From positions 1 through 64,000 of the forward strand of contig JAQBPN010000054.1 in assembly GCA_028287505.1 (NCBI GenBank): a stretch of DNA of 64,000 nt. Reading direction: 5' to 3'. The DNA is from Fibrobacterota bacterium (lineage in GTDB: Bacteria; Fibrobacterota; Fibrobacteria; UBA11236). Position numbers and translations under genes: made by a program. Positions 23,662-31,413 of the stretch are shown here, in pieces (the stretch's first letter is position 1; each line of letters starts with the position of its first letter). The notes beneath the pieces are model-generated. The model ran no database searches, was not told the origin of the DNA, and saw only the letters and a list, made by a program, of their open reading frames with translations.

Positions 23662-24744
23662 TCAGAATTCCGCGCTTTCGGACCAATAGACATACCGGGC
23701 CGGGCTTTGCCTGACGACCGATTGGTTCCTATAGGATGCCGCTACATTGCCGCCGTTTCCGTCCGTTTTTATCCAGGCAACGAAGTGATTGCAGTCGGTG
23801 CCCGAAAGATTGCAATTCGTGGCCAATTGATTGTAATAGATCCAGCCATCATCATTATTGATCACCCAAAGGCGGTAATCCGGAGAATACTGCGCCCAAG
23901 GGGACGCGACCCCCGTTCCATCAAAGCCTCCGATATCATAACTGCGGGGAATGACGGGATATTGGTTCCAAACGTTATACATCAGATATTCCATGGCCTT
24001 CGAAGGAGAAGAACCGCTGGCCACTTGGGCTATCGGAGAACCGGTCCAGGTTCCGTATGTCGCCACCCTGTCCGCGGTAATCGCCGGACCCTGCCGTTCC
24101 CAGATGTTCGAGCTACCGTTCCATTTGTAAATGCCGGCCCTGGAACCGCGCACGACGGCGAACACATTTCCCGCAGGATCCACTGAGACATCTCCCGTCT
24201 GCCCGGCGTCGATTCCATTGGAAAGGAGTACCCATGTCGTTCCATTGAAAACGTAGGGATTCTGGGTGGTACTGACAGCTACAAGGACGTTGGACTCGCT
24301 CGATGCAATCCTTGCCCATTTTACGCCCGCCAGGACGGGCATTTTCAGCCATGACCCGCCGGTTGGATCGGTACGCATCCATTGTCCGTTCTTCCAAACC
24401 CACTTGTAGATGTCATTGCTGTTGTTCACGATGAAAATGTCGTCCCGCCATCCCACGGCCACGTCATAAGACTGGGCATTCGCGAGCGAATACCAAGTCA
24501 TGGATTGATTCGAAACCGCTACGGCGGCGGATTTGCCCAAAGTACGGGGGATGTTGTTTGTCGGCAGGCTTCCGGGCGGCAATGCAGTTTTGTCATGCGA
24601 CTCCACTTTCCAGGGAACCACCAGCGGCTTGGTTTGGGTAGCGGTCTTGTTATCGGCTTGGTCCAGGCCTTGTGCGGTTTCCATGCATCCCATCAAGGAA
24701 AAAGCCAGGGGAATCCCCAATACAAACAGTCTCTTCTTTTTCAT
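23662..24744 (-). CDS. Exported lipoprotein with tectonin/propeller-like repeats
   Basis: 360 residues. The N-terminus MKKKRLFVLGIPLAFSLMGC ends in a lipobox with lipidation at C20. The body contains repeated Trp/Gly/Asn-rich beta units (DVAVGWRDDIFIVNNSNDIYKW, GDVSVDPAGNVFAVVRGSRAGIYKWNG) that look like tectonin or beta-propeller blades. The predicted location is the envelope; the ligand is unknown. The start is supported by TAGGAG about 6 nt upstream. Its promoter region carries the motif at 24839-24869 that is shared with the next lipoprotein gene. Confidence 0.75.
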   Translation of the reverse strand: MKKKRLFVLGIPLAFSLMGCMETAQGLDQADNKTATQTKPLVVPWKVESHDKTALPPGSLPTNNIPRTLGKSAAVAVSNQSMTWYSLANAQSYDVAVGWRDDIFIVNNSNDIYKWVWKNGQWMRTDPTGGSWLKMPVLAGVKWARIASSESNVLVAVSTTQNPYVFNGTTWVLLSNGIDAGQTGDVSVDPAGNVFAVVRGSRAGIYKWNGSSNIWERQGPAITADRVATYGTWTGSPIAQVASGSSPSKAMEYLMYNVWNQYPVIPRSYDIGGFDGTGVASPWAQYSPDYRLWVINNDDGWIYYNQLATNCNLSGTDCNHFVAWIKTDGNGGNVAASYRNQSVVRQSPARYVYWSESAEF

Positions 24745-24778
24745 GCGACACTCCTATTAGAATTGTAAAAAGGCCATG

Positions 24779-24802
24779 TGTTCCGATTTCCGGATCGGAA
24801 CA
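24779..24802 (-). terminator. Inverted repeat, possible terminator of the 278-aa lipoprotein gene
   Basis: A perfect 9-bp stem, TGTTCCGAT and ATCGGAACA around a 6-base loop, lies between the two small lipoprotein genes. On the minus strand it is followed after 7 bases by TTTTT, so it could be a weak rho-independent terminator for the gene ending at 24918. It could instead be an operator, because it also lies 35 bp upstream of the next start codon. Confidence 0.45.
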
Positions 24803-24838
24803 CCCCCCTGCCCAGGATTGGCGTTGCAAGATGGATCG

Positions 24839-24869
24839 TTTGACGAAGCAGTCGCCTCGAGCGTGGACA
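24839..24869 (-). promoter_or_regulatory. Shared promoter-like motif, copy 1 (upstream of the 360-aa lipoprotein)
   Basis: On the minus strand this reads TGTCCACGCTCG, 13 bases, then GTCAAA. An almost identical element with exactly the same 13-base spacing lies at 25837-25867. GTCWAA resembles the -10 element of ECF-type promoters, and an ECF sigma factor gene lies 4 kb away. The proximal box is about 95 nt upstream of the ATG at 24744. Confidence 0.5.
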
Positions 24870-24917
24870 CTATTTCCATAGGGATGGAAAAAATGATGCC
24901 TCCCGAGCTGGGCGAGT

Positions 24918-25754
24918 CTATCGCACGGTCACCGTCAGTTTGACCGCGATGAATTCGCTTGGAGTCACCGATAGATAGGAACCACTGCAGGCGTAAACGG
25001 GAGTTCCGATGGACCCTGCATTGCGGTATGTGACTCCATAGCAGACGCTGTAATTGGGGTAGGTCGTGCTCGCCCTAAGACCCTGCATCCAGACAGCGGC
25101 GTTTCCGCTCGAGTGATCGGCATTCCAACCTTTCAGGCTGGTCCATCCGGCGCCATTGTTCCAGAGCACTCCCCAACTGAGCTGGGGAGTGACCCCGTTT
25201 TCGATTTGGCTTGTGATATTCAGTCCCAAAACCCCGGGAGCGTATAGATTGGTGGGATCGCCCGCCCATTGGTCATTTCCGACGAATCCGAGCCAAGCGC
25301 CATTGATTGCGATTCTGTACCGGATATAGCCGTTCGTCCACCATTGCGAAGCGGATCCCTTCTTCAAACCCGCAGCCGTCATGGACAGGGAAACGGGATC
25401 TCCTTTGAAGTCTCCGCTGTTGAAATCGTACGACGATTCCAATTGCTCTGCCCGATAGGGATTGCCGCGCGACAGATAGGATTTCCTGAGGGCAACGAGC
25501 ATTCCGGGATCCACATGGGGCATGGCTCCTCCATCGGCCAGAATGAGCGGTACCGCGAGCTTCCCTTCAGATTCGGAAACGTCCTTATACACGACATTTC
25601 CATCCGCGTCCGGGGGGCCAATCACCGGGACGGCCGCACCCGTATTCACGGAAGCGGGTCCCGCGGTATCGGATGCCTGTTCGCATCCGACCGTGAGCAG
25701 GGACGCGAACAGGGCCAATGGGCCGAATGCAAATAGAGAGTACCTACGGTTCAT
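24918..25754 (-). CDS. Exported lipoprotein, unknown function
   Basis: 278 residues from ATG 25754, which follows a strong ribosome binding site (AAGGAGG, 5 nt spacing). A start at 25826 would put 24 residues before the signal peptide and is rejected. The lipobox is LTVGC with C24. The mature part opens with a Thr/Ala/Ser/Pro-rich linker, then has a beta-rich body with Trp/Gly-rich stretches (SQWWTNGYIRYRIAINGAWLG, GNDQWAGDPTN). Two Cys near the C-terminus (YSVCYG, YACSGS) may form a disulfide. I do not recognise the family. It shares its upstream motif with the neighbouring 360-aa lipoprotein. Confidence 0.75.
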   Translation of the reverse strand: MNRRYSLFAFGPLALFASLLTVGCEQASDTAGPASVNTGAAVPVIGPPDADGNVVYKDVSESEGKLAVPLILADGGAMPHVDPGMLVALRKSYLSRGNPYRAEQLESSYDFNSGDFKGDPVSLSMTAAGLKKGSASQWWTNGYIRYRIAINGAWLGFVGNDQWAGDPTNLYAPGVLGLNITSQIENGVTPQLSWGVLWNNGAGWTSLKGWNADHSSGNAAVWMQGLRASTTYPNYSVCYGVTYRNAGSIGTPVYACSGSYLSVTPSEFIAVKLTVTVR

Positions 25755-25836
25755 GAAACCTCCTTGGGCAGGCTGATATCCTGTCCGGAAAACGTTTGGA
25801 ATTCCGAGTGCAAACGCAATTTGCAACGGGTCCCGA

Positions 25837-25867
25837 TTAGACGCGGGCCAACTCGCGAGCGTGGACA
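25837..25867 (-). promoter_or_regulatory. Shared promoter-like motif, copy 2 (upstream of the 278-aa lipoprotein)
   Basis: On the minus strand this reads TGTCCACGCTCG, 13 bases, then GTCTAA. It is the partner of the element at 24839-24869: the 12-base box is identical, the spacing is identical, and one base differs in the 6-base box. A GGAAA-TAG stretch just upstream is also shared. The 6-base box is about 83 nt from the ATG at 25754. Confidence 0.5.
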
Positions 25868-25917
25868 GCTATTTTCCGGATTTTGGGGTCGCGGGAGGCG
25901 CCGCCTCCCGGATGAAA

Positions 25918-27576
25918 TCAGAACTGGTGGCCGACCGAAAGGCCGGACTCGAGTCCGAGAGGCGATCGGGACGTCGCAGCGCTGGAAAAATCATAACCGT
26001 AATAACCGCCCGCCGCCGTCGCCGAAAGCCAGATGCGATATGGGAAATAAATCTCGCACTCCAATGGAAGGGTAATCCGTAAAAGATTCGCGACCGATTC
26101 CCGCTCGGTATCCAGGGATCGGCCGCCCGCCACCACGGGAGCCTCCCCAAAGCGGTTGTCCTTCACCGTCTGGAACAGCCAATGATACGACGCTTGCGCC
26201 CCGACCAAGAGCTGGCCGTGCACACCGCGTAACACCGGCGTTTCCATGGAATAGCCGAGGCCGCCCATGCGGATGGAATTTTCCAAACCCGTGGGACCGC
26301 CGTCCAGGCGCGTTTGGGCGAAGGACAGTCCCAGCGTCTGCTTGGTCCAATATCCCCGGAACACATATTCCGCCTGGGACAGCGTGAGGTCCTTGAACAT
26401 GGGAGCGCGCCGGGCGGAAAGCTGCACGCCGTTGAAATGCATTTCCAGGATGCGGCCTCCTTTTTCGGAAAGCATGGATTTGGCCTTGCGGCGGAACATC
26501 GGCGGACTCACCAGGGCCGTGCGTTGCCATGTCAGGTCCACTTCCGCGATGCGGCTTTCGCCCTTCTCGCGGTACGCCAGGACATATTTGTTGGAAGGCA
26601 GGGAAAACCTCACGCTGTCCTGGCCCGTGAGCCAGGCGCGTCCCTCCAATTGCATGGAGTTGCCGTTATAGATCTCCATCGGGCCCAAGGGCATGTGTTG
26701 CAGCAACAGTTGCGATTGCTGGTTTCCGATGCGTGCGACCACGGGGTCGGCTTCGCCGGTCATGTCGAAATCGAAACCGGGATTCTGTTGGGAGGCTTGA
26801 CCCATGATTTCCTCCCGCTTGGTGGAAACGCGGGCGTAGTCGAACGCCTCCATGAGCCGTATCGACTTGTCCCCGTCGTAATCGGCCAGACCGCGCATGC
26901 CGTTCAGGAAATGATGGGTGAACACGGCCCCGCGGTAATCCTCGCTTTCCTGCGCCATCTCGCCGCGGGAGCTGGAGCTGATCAGGATGGTGCCCTTGCT
27001 TTCCAGGCGATCCACCATCACCACCTTGGGGGCATCCACCAGGCGTCCCCCCTTGTTGCGGAGGAAATCGCCGGACTCGCAGGCGTCCAGGATGAGGATC
27101 TTGAGATTGCTTTCCAGCGATTCAAGGTACCGGGAAAGATCTTCCCTGGAAAGGATTTGCCCCCGCACATGCAGGCCTTCCGCCGAGCCGTGCCCCGAAT
27201 AATAGATCAGCACCAGGGATTCCGTGCCCGCCTTGCGCAACTCCCGGACCCGGCCCTTCACTTCTTCCAGGGATGCCTTGATTTTTTCCAGAGGCTGATT
27301 CGTCAAAAGGTAGATGCGGTCCTCATCGAAGGTCCCGGCGTGCCGGAACGTCTCGGCCATTTCCTTTGCATCCCGGGAGGCATAATGAAGGGGACGCTCC
27401 TCCTCCATGCCTTGATCCTCGCCTATGAACAATGCGATGCGCTGCACCTCGGCGCAAACACATGCGCAGGCGGTCAAAAGGATTGGTAACGCGCGGGGCA
27501 ACAAGGTATTCCGGGCCCGACTATCTGGTAAGACGGAATGCGTCCGCGCGCAGATTGGCCCTGGGGGATTTTCCAT
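25918..27576 (-). CDS. Exported caspase-like (peptidase C14) protein with barrel-like C-terminus
   Basis: 552 residues. Residues about 44-275 are a caspase-fold domain: VQRIALFIGEDQG, LVLIYYSGHG with catalytic H129, and ILILDACESGD with catalytic C166. A hydrophobic signal peptide (ALPILLTACACVCA) precedes it, so the protease is exported. The remaining 270 residues include alternating beta-strand segments and end in GLSVGHQF, a terminal aromatic residue typical of outer-membrane barrels. The gene is last in an operon and overlaps the anti-sigma gene by 56 bp if ATG 27576 is used. A TTG at 27504, just after that stop and right before the signal peptide, is an equally good start. Substrate unknown. 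Confidence 0.8.
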   Translation of the reverse strand: MENPPGPICARTHSVLPDSRARNTLLPRALPILLTACACVCAEVQRIALFIGEDQGMEEERPLHYASRDAKEMAETFRHAGTFDEDRIYLLTNQPLEKIKASLEEVKGRVRELRKAGTESLVLIYYSGHGSAEGLHVRGQILSREDLSRYLESLESNLKILILDACESGDFLRNKGGRLVDAPKVVMVDRLESKGTILISSSSRGEMAQESEDYRGAVFTHHFLNGMRGLADYDGDKSIRLMEAFDYARVSTKREEIMGQASQQNPGFDFDMTGEADPVVARIGNQQSQLLLQHMPLGPMEIYNGNSMQLEGRAWLTGQDSVRFSLPSNKYVLAYREKGESRIAEVDLTWQRTALVSPPMFRRKAKSMLSEKGGRILEMHFNGVQLSARRAPMFKDLTLSQAEYVFRGYWTKQTLGLSFAQTRLDGGPTGLENSIRMGGLGYSMETPVLRGVHGQLLVGAQASYHWLFQTVKDNRFGEAPVVAGGRSLDTERESVANLLRITLPLECEIYFPYRIWLSATAAGGYYGYDFSSAATSRSPLGLESGLSVGHQF

Positions 27577-28303
27577 CCAAGGCTTGGAGGCCCTCAGCCT
27601 TGGAAAAGGCGGAAAAGGAAGTGATGACCCATACCATCTGCCGGTGCCACTCGCCTTCCAGGACGATGCGGACCGGAGCCGGGCGCCATCCCATGGCTGC
27701 GGGCCAAGGGGCGGCGTCCGCGCCGGTCATGGCCTGGGCGGTCCCGCCCTCCTCCCGAAACCAGATTTGGGCCGAAACCGGATTGGGGCTCCGGTAGGAG
27801 ATGCCCAGGGTGTCGCCGGACGCGGCGGAAGCGACCTGCCCGGGTTCGATTTCATTTCCCCGGATGGTGATGTGGATCAGGATGTCTTCCAGGCCCTTGG
27901 GATGCAGGTGCGAACCGTTTCCGATTCCCTCCGAGAGACCCGTCCCCTGCAACCGCCAGGCCCACATCCCCGCGCCCAACATCAGAAGCGAAGCCAAAGC
28001 GAACCCCAACCCGCGCCTCCCATTGCCGGGCCGCAGCAGCTTTTTGGCCCGCTCCCAACCCTCCCTCGCCCAAGGGCGCACCGGCGTTTGCCGGACGGAG
28101 CGCGCCGCGGGGTTTCCCGGGAGCCTATCCGAACGCAGGGATGAGTATTTCTCCAGGTACCGCCGGGCTTCCGGTGAAGCGGACACCGCCTCCCGCAGCG
28201 CTGCGGCCTCCGACTCCGGCAGATCCCCGTTCATCAGCTTGTCCAGCTTCCAAAGGGAAATCCGGGCGTGGTCTCCCAAACCGCTTTCTTCATTCGCGTT
28301 CAC
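27521..28303 (-). CDS. Putative membrane anti-sigma factor
   Basis: 260 residues. The cytoplasmic N-terminus has an anti-sigma-like opening (ISLWKLDKLMNGDLPESEAAALREAVSAS, split here as residues about 15-43) but no HxxxCxxC zinc motif. One membrane helix follows (about 99-117, GFALASLLMLGAGMWAW), then an extracytoplasmic beta-rich domain of about 140 residues. Position directly downstream of an ECF sigma gene, topology and size support an anti-sigma role. The domain order also fits the DUF4384-type domains often found next to caspase genes, but I cannot confirm that. It is co-oriented with the sigma gene (73 bp gap) and the caspase-like gene. Confidence 0.62.
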   Translation of the reverse strand: MNANEESGLGDHARISLWKLDKLMNGDLPESEAAALREAVSASPEARRYLEKYSSLRSDRLPGNPAARSVRQTPVRPWAREGWERAKKLLRPGNGRRGLGFALASLLMLGAGMWAWRLQGTGLSEGIGNGSHLHPKGLEDILIHITIRGNEIEPGQVASAASGDTLGISYRSPNPVSAQIWFREEGGTAQAMTGADAAPWPAAMGWRPAPVRIVLEGEWHRQMVWVITSFSAFSKAEGLQALDGKSPRANLRADAFRLTR

Positions 28304-28344
28304 TTTCGGCCTCCACTGCGGTCGATTGCCCGTCGCCGCGCACA

Positions 28345-28366
28345 GTCCAACCGATTGGACGTTTTT
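28345..28366 (+). terminator. Inverted repeat with T-run between sigma and anti-sigma genes
   Basis: GTCCAA-CCGA-TTGGAC followed by GTTTTT reads as a short rho-independent terminator on the plus strand, although both flanking genes are on the minus strand. It might end antisense transcription, or act as a stem in the mRNA between the sigma and anti-sigma genes. The stem is only 6 bp. Confidence 0.3.
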
Positions 28367-28376
28367 CGCGTCCTGA

Positions 28377-28931
28377 TCATGGACAGATCTTCGCTTTCGT
28401 TTCCATCGAAGCCGGCCGTGATACGTGGTTGGCGCTGAATTTCTTCATGAAACGCATCACGGTCTTGGCCACCGCCTCCCGGGAGATATTCATGACTTCC
28501 CCCGTTTCCCGATAACTCAAACCCTCCGCCAGGGTCAGGAAAAGCATCTGCCGCACTCTGGGTCGGAACTGCCGCAGGATGTTTTCCAAATCCACCTTGG
28601 CCAGCACCCTGTCCCCTTCCGTGCTGAGATTACCGACAACCAGGGAATCCAGATAGTCCGCGCTGAGTTTGTCCAAGCCTTTGCGCTTACGGAGATAATC
28701 CAGGCAACAATTGGTAGTGATGCGATAGATCCAGGTCCCAAGCTGCGAATCCCCGCGGAACCGGGCAAGGTTCCGGTCGATGCGCAGAAAGGTTTCCTGA
28801 GCCAGGTCCTCGGCCTCCTCCCGGCTTCGGGTATAACGCGAACAAATCCGGAACACGAAATCCAGATGCGAACGGTAGATCGCCTCAAGGGTGGGCATGG
28901 GCGCCCCGGCCGGCCTGGACACGGTATGCAT
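28377..28931 (-). CDS. ECF-type RNA polymerase sigma factor
   Basis: 184 residues of sigma-70 regions 2 and 4. Region 2 includes YRSHLDFVFRICSRYTRSREEAEDLAQETFLRI and GTWIYRITTNCCLDYLRKRK (each quoted in part; about residues 19-51 and 65-84). Region 4 includes RQMLFLTLAEGLSYRETGEVMNISREAVAKTVMR, the DNA-binding helix-turn-helix. It has no sigma-3 region, as expected for ECF factors. It would direct polymerase to a small envelope-related regulon. The start overlaps the upstream lipoprotein gene by 47 bp (or 14 bp if ATG 28898 is used), which suggests translational coupling. Confidence 0.93.
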   Translation of the reverse strand: MHTVSRPAGAPMPTLEAIYRSHLDFVFRICSRYTRSREEAEDLAQETFLRIDRNLARFRGDSQLGTWIYRITTNCCLDYLRKRKGLDKLSADYLDSLVVGNLSTEGDRVLAKVDLENILRQFRPRVRQMLFLTLAEGLSYRETGEVMNISREAVAKTVMRFMKKFSANHVSRPASMETKAKICP

Positions 28932-31275
28932 CGAAGGAAATGAGAAATTCCGGATCGGCGGTCGGAACCCTTTCCAACCTTATGAAAAAGGGATCGGCCG
29001 TTACGGGCAGCGGTTTCAGGACCAGGGTCGCGGAATCGGACTGGAAATCGACCCAGAAATCATCGGCGAGCATGCGGTCCGGTTTCGCGGAATCGGCGCC
29101 GCCCGACAAGCGGAAGCGCGCGCGGGCCTTACCGGCGCCGGATTCCCGGCGCAAGGCGAGTTCCAGGCTCGTCGAGTGGCCCTGCAAGCCGTCCAGGCGG
29201 AACAGAATCCCTTCCCCTCCCTGGCTCAAGGAGATTGAATCGCCGGGAAACGAATGATCCAGCGCTTCCACCCAACCGTCCCCGGCCTTGAGGAAAAGGC
29301 CGTCCGCCGAACCCGGGTAATGCCCTTGGCCGTCGAGCCCCCGATAGGTATCATGCATGCTACCCTGGGACGCGGACACCAGGGAATCCGGCTCCTCCAG
29401 CCCGGGAAACAGGGATGCAGGCGTCCGGGGCCCGTATGCAACCGCGGGACACCATTTGAGGGTATCATCCTTCGACAGCACCAGGTAGGACACCCGGTCC
29501 GCATCGGTGCGGCGGAAAGTGGCGCGGCAATCGCAATCCCGGCTGAAAAAAACACTTTCGGAGGCGGCCAGGTAATAATGGGGCGTCATGCCCGGAACCC
29601 CGATCCGCAAGCTGTCCCCATCAGGGGAAGGAACGACCCGGAGGGTGTCTCTCCCATATTCGAAATCCCCGGCGAAGGCGGCGATCTTTCCCGCCGGCAC
29701 GGGTATGGAAGCCAGGGCCGAAATCGCGCGCACCCGGGCATTCACGCTTTCGGGTATTTCCAGGGACGAATCCGCGGTGGCCACGTAGCGCTTGCCACCG
29801 CTGTACATAAGCAGTTTTTCGGTTTTCCCTCCCGCTTCCACGACCTGGAATTGAAGGTCGATTGCGGGAGCGAAGAAGTCCGACGAATCGGCGGACACCA
29901 AGCGAAAGGTGCCGAGATTGGGAACCGACGCCCAGAGGCCGCCCCGACCCGGCACCAAGCAGAAAGGATGGAAAGGTTGAAAGCGGTAGGCACCCAACAG
30001 GTGCGCCGACCGGTCTTGCACCGAGTCGGATGCCTTCGGATTTTGCAGGGGCTCCTGGACCGGCGCCGAGGGCGGATTGAAATAGGCCTCGCTCATCCCA
30101 TAGTCGATGTGGATCGAATCCCCGGGATCGAGTACGCGGCATTCGTATTGGGCGCTGCACTGGATCAGGTTGTATCCCAGATGGAGCCGTTCCTTGTTGG
30201 CTACGTTGAAGGAACTGCTCAGTTCCGCGGCCCGCATTTCATCCATGCCGACCTGGTTGCGGATATACAGAAGGAAATGGCTGCGCGTGCGCCCCGCGAC
30301 CCAGTCCTCTCCCGGCTTGTCGAAGCCTTCGAAGGGATAATCGTTCCAACCTTTGGATACAGCCTCCCCCCGCATGGACTCGTAACGGAGGATTACCTCG
30401 ATCAACTTCCCGGTGGCTTCCCTGACCCTCAGCTCGAATTCCGCTTCCCTTCCCGGCAGCGGGAAAAGTTTACGCTGATAAGGGAAATCGTATGCGATTG
30501 CGAATCCCGGCGCGGGCTTCGCAATGCGGAAATAGTCATTGCTCTTTTTGCGGAGAGCGAAGAATAATTCCCAACGATTGGGATAATTAAGCACCCGGAA
30601 ACGGCAGTTCAGGACGCTGATCCAGGGTTCCTGTTTGAGGGTTTCGGGAGCGCCCGTCCAGATCGTATCCGGCTTGCCATCCACCATGTGAACGGTAGTG
30701 CCGAACCGTCCGATATAGTAGGTCTCCTCCACATCCACGCGGACGGGCTCGACCTTTGCCACCTCAAGCACCCGGTCCATGGCTTGGAGATAGGCGGTGT
30801 TCATTTGATCCACGGTCAAGTTGATGGAGAGCAGCTCGGGATGGATGAGGCGATCGAGCTTTCCATTCCCATTCGCATCCTGATACAGCCAGAAGGTTCC
30901 AAGGGCCAAATCCTTCGCATCCAGGATTTCATTGTCCGGAGGGGTCCTTAAATCTATTTCGAATCGGAATGGAATATTCGCGTCCTTGACCGTGGCCCCG
31001 GTCGGCGAAAACGTAAACTCCTTGGTGCCAAGAAATTGCCAGATCAAGGCTATTTTCGGCGCATCCAACCCCAGGATCCTGGCATTGGTAATGGCGCTAT
31101 CGGACTCGCTGTAAGCCGCACCGTGGAATCGGCCCAGGGAAACCAGGTTCTCCGGGTTTGCCGGATCCACGACCGCCCCCTCCCGAAAACACGATGCCAA
31201 CAGGAGAGCAAGGCCTGTTACCCGGATAAGACCGGTCCTGGGGGCAGAAACAGATTTTGGGCTTGATTCGATCAT
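28885..31275 (-). CDS. Large exported lipoprotein, first gene of the sigma/caspase operon
   Basis: 796 residues with a signal peptide ending in the lipobox LLLASC (C29). The N-terminal third has a segment DANGNGKLDR (about 132-141), which resembles a calcium-binding loop. The rest is beta-rich with no catalytic motif I can name. A region about 550-640 contains a CDC pair (SRDCDC). It is not a known family to me. It heads a minus-strand unit with the ECF sigma factor, which starts before this gene stops. An envelope sensor or surface component is an inference from that context only. Confidence 0.72.
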   Translation of the reverse strand: MIESSPKSVSAPRTGLIRVTGLALLLASCFREGAVVDPANPENLVSLGRFHGAAYSESDSAITNARILGLDAPKIALIWQFLGTKEFTFSPTGATVKDANIPFRFEIDLRTPPDNEILDAKDLALGTFWLYQDANGNGKLDRLIHPELLSINLTVDQMNTAYLQAMDRVLEVAKVEPVRVDVEETYYIGRFGTTVHMVDGKPDTIWTGAPETLKQEPWISVLNCRFRVLNYPNRWELFFALRKKSNDYFRIAKPAPGFAIAYDFPYQRKLFPLPGREAEFELRVREATGKLIEVILRYESMRGEAVSKGWNDYPFEGFDKPGEDWVAGRTRSHFLLYIRNQVGMDEMRAAELSSSFNVANKERLHLGYNLIQCSAQYECRVLDPGDSIHIDYGMSEAYFNPPSAPVQEPLQNPKASDSVQDRSAHLLGAYRFQPFHPFCLVPGRGGLWASVPNLGTFRLVSADSSDFFAPAIDLQFQVVEAGGKTEKLLMYSGGKRYVATADSSLEIPESVNARVRAISALASIPVPAGKIAAFAGDFEYGRDTLRVVPSPDGDSLRIGVPGMTPHYYLAASESVFFSRDCDCRATFRRTDADRVSYLVLSKDDTLKWCPAVAYGPRTPASLFPGLEEPDSLVSASQGSMHDTYRGLDGQGHYPGSADGLFLKAGDGWVEALDHSFPGDSISLSQGGEGILFRLDGLQGHSTSLELALRRESGAGKARARFRLSGGADSAKPDRMLADDFWVDFQSDSATLVLKPLPVTADPFFIRLERVPTADPEFLISFDAYRVQAGRGAHAHP

Positions 31276-31290: not shown

Positions 31291-31315
31291 GGTTAGGACG
31301 GGTCAATATCTAACC
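31291..31315 (-). promoter_or_regulatory. Inverted repeat before the large lipoprotein start
   Basis: GGTTAG and CTAACC flank a 13-base spacer, 16 bp upstream of the ATG at 31275. It could be an operator site for the sigma/caspase operon or an mRNA stem near the ribosome binding region. I see no strong Shine-Dalgarno sequence here. Confidence 0.4.
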
Positions 31316-31413
31316 TTTGGCGGGCGCCCCTGCAATCCTTGACCCCCCGCAGACCCGATCTGAAATTCCCCAAAAAGCATGGACCAAATCCCGCAAGTGG
31401 GAGTGGCAATCTC

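Follow-up and report, generated by a model that had tools for sequence, protein, structure and literature searches.

Among described signalling systems, those closest to the gene cluster reported here are RseA/DegS/RseP (the sigma-E system), FecI/FecR, type III-E Craspase and the ECF54 group of extracytoplasmic function (ECF) sigma factors. The cluster lies in a 64,000-nucleotide stretch, hereafter the window (positions 1 to 64,000 of the forward strand of contig JAQBPN010000054.1, assembly GCA_028287505.1; contig C42 in the numbering used here), from the 6.07-Mb draft genome of a Fibrobacterota bacterium (G000). It occupies positions 23662-31275 and holds six genes, all present and all on the minus strand, as are all features located below; in order, they encode a 796-amino-acid (796-aa) lipoprotein, an ECF sigma factor, a single-span membrane protein of 260 aa, an exported caspase and two small lipoproteins. 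With RseA/DegS/RseP, the cluster shares the ECF sigma factor, a single-span anti-sigma factor, a periplasmic site-1 cut, here proposed, and an M50 protease encoded in the genome, but site-1 cleavage in that system is the work of a PDZ serine protease, whereas here it would fall to a C14 caspase from the same operon. In FecI/FecR signalling, an outer-membrane barrel protein, an inner-membrane anti-sigma factor and an ECF sigma factor are likewise encoded together, but that barrel is a TonB-dependent receptor, whereas the predicted barrel protein of the window carries a protease domain instead; a TonB-dependent receptor with a plug domain is absent from the module genes of the window and present downstream of the caspase in a Fibrobacter-type locus (L063). 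Functionally, Craspase/CASP comes nearest; in it, a caspase-clan protease (Csx29, TPR-CHAT) cuts Csx30 and so relieves the inhibition of an ECF-like factor, CASP-sigma (PMC10028731). The likeness would be that of a caspase-clan protease cutting the inhibitor of an ECF-like sigma factor; however, Craspase is cytoplasmic, RNA-guided and directed at a soluble inhibitor, whereas the module of the window combines an exported caspase with a membrane-spanning inhibitor. Its protease has a Peptidase_C14 domain and an OmpA-like barrel with no TPR or CHAT match, and the module itself shows no sign of CRISPR (clustered regularly interspaced short palindromic repeats), no genome-wide search for Cas7-11 or Csx30 having been made. 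Members of ECF54, whose genes have CHAT, subtilase and carboxypeptidase neighbours, are alike in having a caspase-clan protease in the gene context of an ECF sigma factor, but here a membrane anti-sigma factor accompanies the pair (PMC8999054).

Operons of this type were listed in 2012 as sigma-70/metacaspase operons, without a mechanism, by Asplund-Samuelsson et al. (PMC3501461), and that list includes Myxococcus xanthus (four operons), Anaeromyxobacter, Haliangium, Sorangium, Ralstonia and Fibrobacter. They very probably represent the same core system, although the passage on them gives the operon only, with no anti-sigma factor, K-G sites, outer-membrane anchoring or mechanism. No later characterisation was found in the open literature, subscription papers and bioRxiv lying outside its scope. 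The original prediction, made from the sequence of the window, had stated that no characterised system has exactly this gene set; it holds in that none was found characterised, but the operons themselves, that of Fibrobacter included, had already been listed. As far as can be checked, the novelty thus lies in the cleavage-site evidence, the matched residue codes and the outer-membrane anchoring. The reading advanced here, which is considered likely, is that of a trans-envelope switch in which the outer-membrane caspase acts as the site-1 protease of the anti-sigma factor and a second cut, of RseP type, would free the sigma factor.

The first four genes are co-oriented and tightly packed, just as originally predicted: the outer lipoprotein that opens the unit (28885-31275, 796 aa, lipobox LLASC), the ECF sigma factor (28377-28931, 184 aa), the single-span anti-sigma factor (27521-28303, 260 aa) and the exported caspase (25918-27576, 552 aa). 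Overlaps between the first two and between the last two frames, which had also been claimed, are present, and how long they are turns on the choice of start codon: the sigma and lipoprotein genes overlap by 47 nt from the ATG at 28931 and by about 14 nt from an internal ATG, and the caspase gene overlaps that of the 260-aa protein by 56 nt from the ATG at 27576 and not at all with a start at the TTG pair that immediately precedes the signal peptide. The gene junctions of the module often take the form of 4-nt overlaps in relatives. The sigma factor matches Sigma70_r2 (E 1.6e-21), Sigma70_r4_2 (E 1.6e-7) and TIGR02937 (96 bits), and both its possession of regions 2 and 4 only and its size (within about 160-200 aa) are those of ECF (group 4) factors. 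The 260-aa protein has the layout of a class I membrane anti-sigma factor, namely a helical N-terminal domain, a single transmembrane helix and a gene beside that of an ECF factor, and it appears to be the anti-sigma factor of the cognate sigma, which it is predicted to bind and inhibit. In its AlphaFold2 model (mean predicted local distance difference test score, pLDDT, 82), cytoplasmic helices are followed by a transmembrane helix (residues 97-121; 27941-28015), a disordered segment (122-133) and a confidently predicted beta-sandwich (142-259). No firm structural relative of this periplasmic domain was found by Foldseek (best E 1.1e-3) or VIA-align (best Z 7.9), the matches being generic beta-sandwiches. 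In favour of an anti-sigma identity, zf-HC2, the zinc finger of anti-sigma factors, is detected in 8 of 36 homologues, and DUF4384 in the periplasmic part of 19; all 12 DUF4384 matches in 13 genomes are caspase-linked anti-sigma proteins.

The gene set is conserved. Caspase homologues occur in 52 of 61 relative genomes, and 40 homologous loci with flanks were collected; the catalytic motif is readable in 39 caspases. At 37 of these 39 class loci, a sigma gene and a gene for a single-helix protein stand directly upstream of the caspase gene and on the same strand, with about 1.0-1.5 kb between the sigma stop codon and the catalytic His codon of the caspase (2.4 kb in a single exception). Since this triad is so regular and only two other sigma matches occur in 662 kb of the same loci, chance clustering is excluded, and the objection that the neighbourhood might not be conserved fails. 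Of the two exceptions, L066 is cut off by the end of its contig, where the membrane protein can still be seen, and the other is L074. Within the order to which the window's organism belongs (class Fibrobacteria), conservation extends to the full set of lipoprotein, ECF sigma factor, single-helix protein and exported caspase. A wider scan of the genome collection, run with a narrower caspase alignment (A2) as the class-wide one (A1) was too divergent, found 249 caspase relatives, of which 80 were kept, from Fibrobacterota, Myxococcota, Latescibacterota, Gemmatimonadota and a spirochaete, among others; a sigma gene is present at 73 of these 80 loci and a membrane protein at 75. Taken together, these comparisons support an envelope sigma/anti-sigma switch that would include a periplasmic caspase and is conserved as a unit.

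Some loci have additional neighbours. At Fibrobacter-type loci L063, L064, L071, L072 and L073, a protein of about 840 aa is encoded downstream of the caspase gene of the triad, that of L063 being the one with the TonB plug domain, and several of these loci next encode a lipoprotein-like protein of about 550 aa, an arrangement resembling cell-surface signalling operons. A further ECF sigma gene lies just outside the window (G000:C42:65406-65615), with no caspase homologue in the surrounding 8.5 kb (L251).

The caspase (Peptidase_C14, E 2.8e-16) begins with a signal peptide, and export and membrane sequence features are seen in the module. A lipobox reading of this signal peptide (LLTAC) was considered and rejected; it is treated as ordinary because those of the homologues end in AxA-like signal-peptidase-I sites. 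The AlphaFold2 model (mean pLDDT 84) comprises a caspase domain (45-257), a beta domain (267-347) and eight long strands (382-551) ending in Phe; Foldseek finds MALT1, legumain and caspases as matches of the first part and OmpA, OprF and NspA as those of the last, and VIA-align superposes the protein on Arabidopsis metacaspase 4 (AtMC4) with Z 22.2 and a root-mean-square deviation of 2.6 over 208 residues. On these models, residues 382-551 (25924-26433) are predicted to form an OmpA-like 8-stranded beta-barrel that would anchor the caspase in the outer membrane. The caspase fold and the His/Cys dyad fit Peptidase C14B (metacaspase/orthocaspase). Catalytic His129 (27190-27192) and Cys166 (27079-27081, motif D164-A-C166) are invariant in 31/31 caspases, as are D69, D164, K175 and G176. 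D69 and D164 align with the aspartates of the metacaspase motifs GCxNDA and DSC and are predicted to be acidic S1-pocket residues linked to Lys/Arg specificity; in our own reading, they presumably occupy the same two positions as D95 and D211 of T. brucei MC2. These two MC2 aspartates are reported to bind basic substrates (PMC8283722), and C14B enzymes cleave after basic residues (PMC6426788).

The two internal low-confidence segments of the caspase model (174-188 and 371-376) each hold a K-G pair. The first pair, K175-G176 (27049-27054), opens the disordered loop after Cys166 and is the proposed autoprocessing site. Caspase-3 and caspase-7 are activated by a cut in a loop shortly after the catalytic Cys, and K175 stands in the corresponding place. 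The second, K372-G373 (26458-26463), lies in the disordered linker before the barrel and is a possible release site (K or R in 30/31, G in 28/31). In a caspase from Polyangiaceae (L186), the loop site reads RLRGG in place of RxKGG, a basic-for-basic swap such as is expected of a Lys/Arg-specific protease.

A role as death proteases is widely discussed for prokaryotic caspase homologues (PMC3501461, PMC7475262), and the gene order would permit co-expression of sigma factor and caspase, so that the caspase might be an executioner of death or self-digestion, as in bacterial programmed cell death, and the operon its expression switch. This is very unlikely, as the enzyme is exported and, by prediction, held in the outer membrane, where cytoplasmic targets would be out of reach, and as PADLOC returns no defence model except a weak generic caspase match. 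Moreover, a single genome may hold as many as six paralogous systems, whose site residues differ between systems and match within pairs, which suits the insulation of signalling pathways better than killing. Six such sigma/anti-sigma/caspase systems are found in G000 (contigs C24, C42, C45, C87, C92 and C112), their caspases differing in C-terminal length.

The case for the anti-sigma factor as the substrate of the caspase starts from one dipeptide, K136-G137 (27893-27898), the proposed site-1 cleavage site. The anti-sigma homologues are very divergent (22% mean column identity over 36 sequences), and K136 and G137 are the sole invariant residues in two separate alignments (38/38 and 36/36). 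The pair lies 10-61 residues past the transmembrane helix in all 38 homologues and, in the AlphaFold2 model, beside the low-confidence linker 122-133, just before the folded domain; in the wider set, a K-G pair occurs in the post-helix stretch of all 75 readable anti-sigma factors, 26 of them from outside Fibrobacterota. Because this pair matches the K-G of the caspase's own activation loop, cleavage of the anti-sigma factor by the caspase is suggested.

Cleavage of both loops by one enzyme would lead one to expect similar residues ahead of the two lysines of a pair, and such agreement is observed. For 16 representatives sharing <60% identity, the tripeptides P4-P2 were scanned in both directions. 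Set against the anti-sigma tripeptide that precedes K136, the one preceding K175 in the cognate caspase matches best (rank 1 of 235 caspase windows, z 4.1); scanned the other way, the K136 position ranks 1 of 169 anti-sigma windows. A permutation test over 12 clusters at 50% identity gives p 0.0004 for the cognate match. Species relatedness is largely avoided when pairings are tested within a genome. The six systems of G000 pair LRN/LHP, LRS/LRS, IQA/YTA, TRF/VRT, TRL/TRL and FNA/FIA, the true pairing being the best of 720; the corresponding figures are 16/720 for G004 and 1/24 for G005, and seven genomes combined give p 5e-6. The invariance of the K-G sites and the cognate match are thus observed. 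Accordingly, of the two substrates that the original prediction had offered to a periplasmic caspase, the anti-sigma factor receives strong indirect support (the invariant K-G, the acidic S1 residues and the matched cognate residues) but the large lipoprotein, with no conserved K-G, does not.

Several points weigh against this reading. A 65-aa stretch would contain one K-G or more by chance with a probability of about 0.27, so that its presence alone is weak evidence for one protein, although its invariance across deep divergence is not, and one unlinked RskA-type anti-sigma factor also has a K-G after its transmembrane helix, in a control in which few of the unlinked anti-sigma factors of the window genome have a co-directional transmembrane neighbour. 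The pairing tests rest on few, phylogenetically related systems, G003 and G001 adding little, and the combined p overstates independence because the same paralogue subfamilies recur between genomes, as in G000 and G004. In subfamilies whose C-terminus is of another kind, the third K-G site, K372-G373, is replaced by R-G or missing. In the anti-sigma factor of the window, neither a Pfam match nor a zinc motif is seen, the latter (zf-HC2/ZAS) being optional in class I anti-sigma factors, so that its absence is no defining failure. At L170, L196 and L197, a K-G-bearing transmembrane protein accompanies the caspase with no sigma gene found within range, for which reason the sigma gene may lie elsewhere. 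These three loci come from Myxococcota and from a record named Comamonas sp., which looks very similar to the Myxococcus locus and may be misnamed.

Alternatively, the periplasmic domain could need the K-G pair for its structure or folding. The pair would then be a motif of the DUF4384-like domain, and another protease, DegS-like or not, or a conformational change would trigger the sigma/anti-sigma pair, with the caspase only a co-expressed envelope effector or a product of the regulon. K-G lies near strand one of the periplasmic domain, as would suit a structural motif, and the targets of an ECF factor are often encoded in its own operon. Cyanobacterial orthocaspases, too, have DUF4384 as an accessory domain (PMC8283722), so that the domain may simply travel with caspases. 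However, K-G is the only invariant pair although the periplasmic domain is very divergent, and the same K-G recurs with matched preceding residues in the caspase loop, whereas a structural motif of one protein should not track the loop of another; this alternative is therefore regarded as improbable.

The proposed trans-envelope switch would operate as follows. The ECF sigma factor would be held at the inner membrane by the single-span anti-sigma factor, while the exported caspase would be fixed in the outer membrane by its barrel with the protease domain toward the periplasm. The caspase would respond to an envelope signal, with its barrel or the lipoprotein at the head of the operon perhaps acting as the sensor; once activated, it would cut itself at K175|G176 in the activation loop and possibly at K372|G373, releasing it from the barrel. 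It would next make the site-1 cut in the anti-sigma factor, at K136|G137 in the linker immediately beyond the membrane, the DUF4384-like domain perhaps shielding this site until the signal comes. An RseP-type (M50) protease, of which a homologue is encoded in the genome (PF02163, E 3.4e-63), would then cut the stub and free the sigma factor. We infer cleavage from the K-G sites, and the order of events, the signal and the regulon belong to the same model.

The large lipoprotein is tightly linked to this caspase subtype: all seven of its homologues found in the 61 genomes searched are encoded directly upstream of a module-type sigma gene, and all seven keep the lipobox Cys. It was considered as a caspase substrate and set aside, the seven homologues having no conserved K-G. 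Processing of this lipoprotein or of other surface proteins by the caspase, with a lipoprotein fragment serving as ligand of the anti-sigma factor, would account for the linkage but is highly improbable, both for want of that site and because the lipoprotein, limited to the window's order, is absent from most triads of the class and so cannot be a general substrate. It occurs with one caspase subtype only, and a role as sensor or regulator is more probable than one as general substrate. Its N-terminal third carries an EF-hand-like DxNxNGxxD loop (DANGNGKLD in the window), kept with small changes in the seven homologues, and it may bind calcium. The upstream regions of the seven four-gene units yielded no shared promoter that could be called; the 10-mer GGTTAGATAT, at about 31310-31325 shortly before the lipoprotein start and also present in the G001 orthologue, is possibly a promoter or leader element.

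The two small lipoproteins, taken as accessory members in the original prediction, are encoded at 24918-25826 (a 302-aa open reading frame with its likely ATG at 25754, lipobox LTVGC) and 23662-24744 (360 aa, lipobox LMGC). The genes are there, but they are set apart by gaps of 163-173 nt and have no detectable or convincing homologue beside the module in 20 relatives; they are outside the conserved unit. A promoter-like element, TGTCCACGCTCG-N12-CGTC(T/A)AA, precedes both the 302-aa frame (25840-25867) and the 360-aa frame (24842-24869), and the two genes may share one ECF-type promoter. No regulon is established, since the 12-mer TGTCCACGCTCG occurs only three times in the genome, before each small lipoprotein gene and once inside a recG-like coding frame; a regulon search with TGTCCACG-N15..17-CGTC gave mostly background-like matches.

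The roles of most prokaryotic caspase homologues are unsettled and usually framed in terms of cell death. On balance, though with somewhat less assurance than for the switch itself, it is plausible that widespread periplasmic caspases anchored in the outer membrane are dedicated site-1 proteases of ECF anti-sigma factors, the site residues co-varying with the protease's activation site and so insulating parallel systems in one cell. If so, a caspase family spread across several phyla would gain a specific substrate and bond, predicted to the residue, as well as a signalling role. The enzyme would be the caspase counterpart of DegS, and the switch an envelope counterpart of the logic of CRISPR Craspase, while co-resident paralogues would constitute a natural set of orthogonal protease/substrate pairs.

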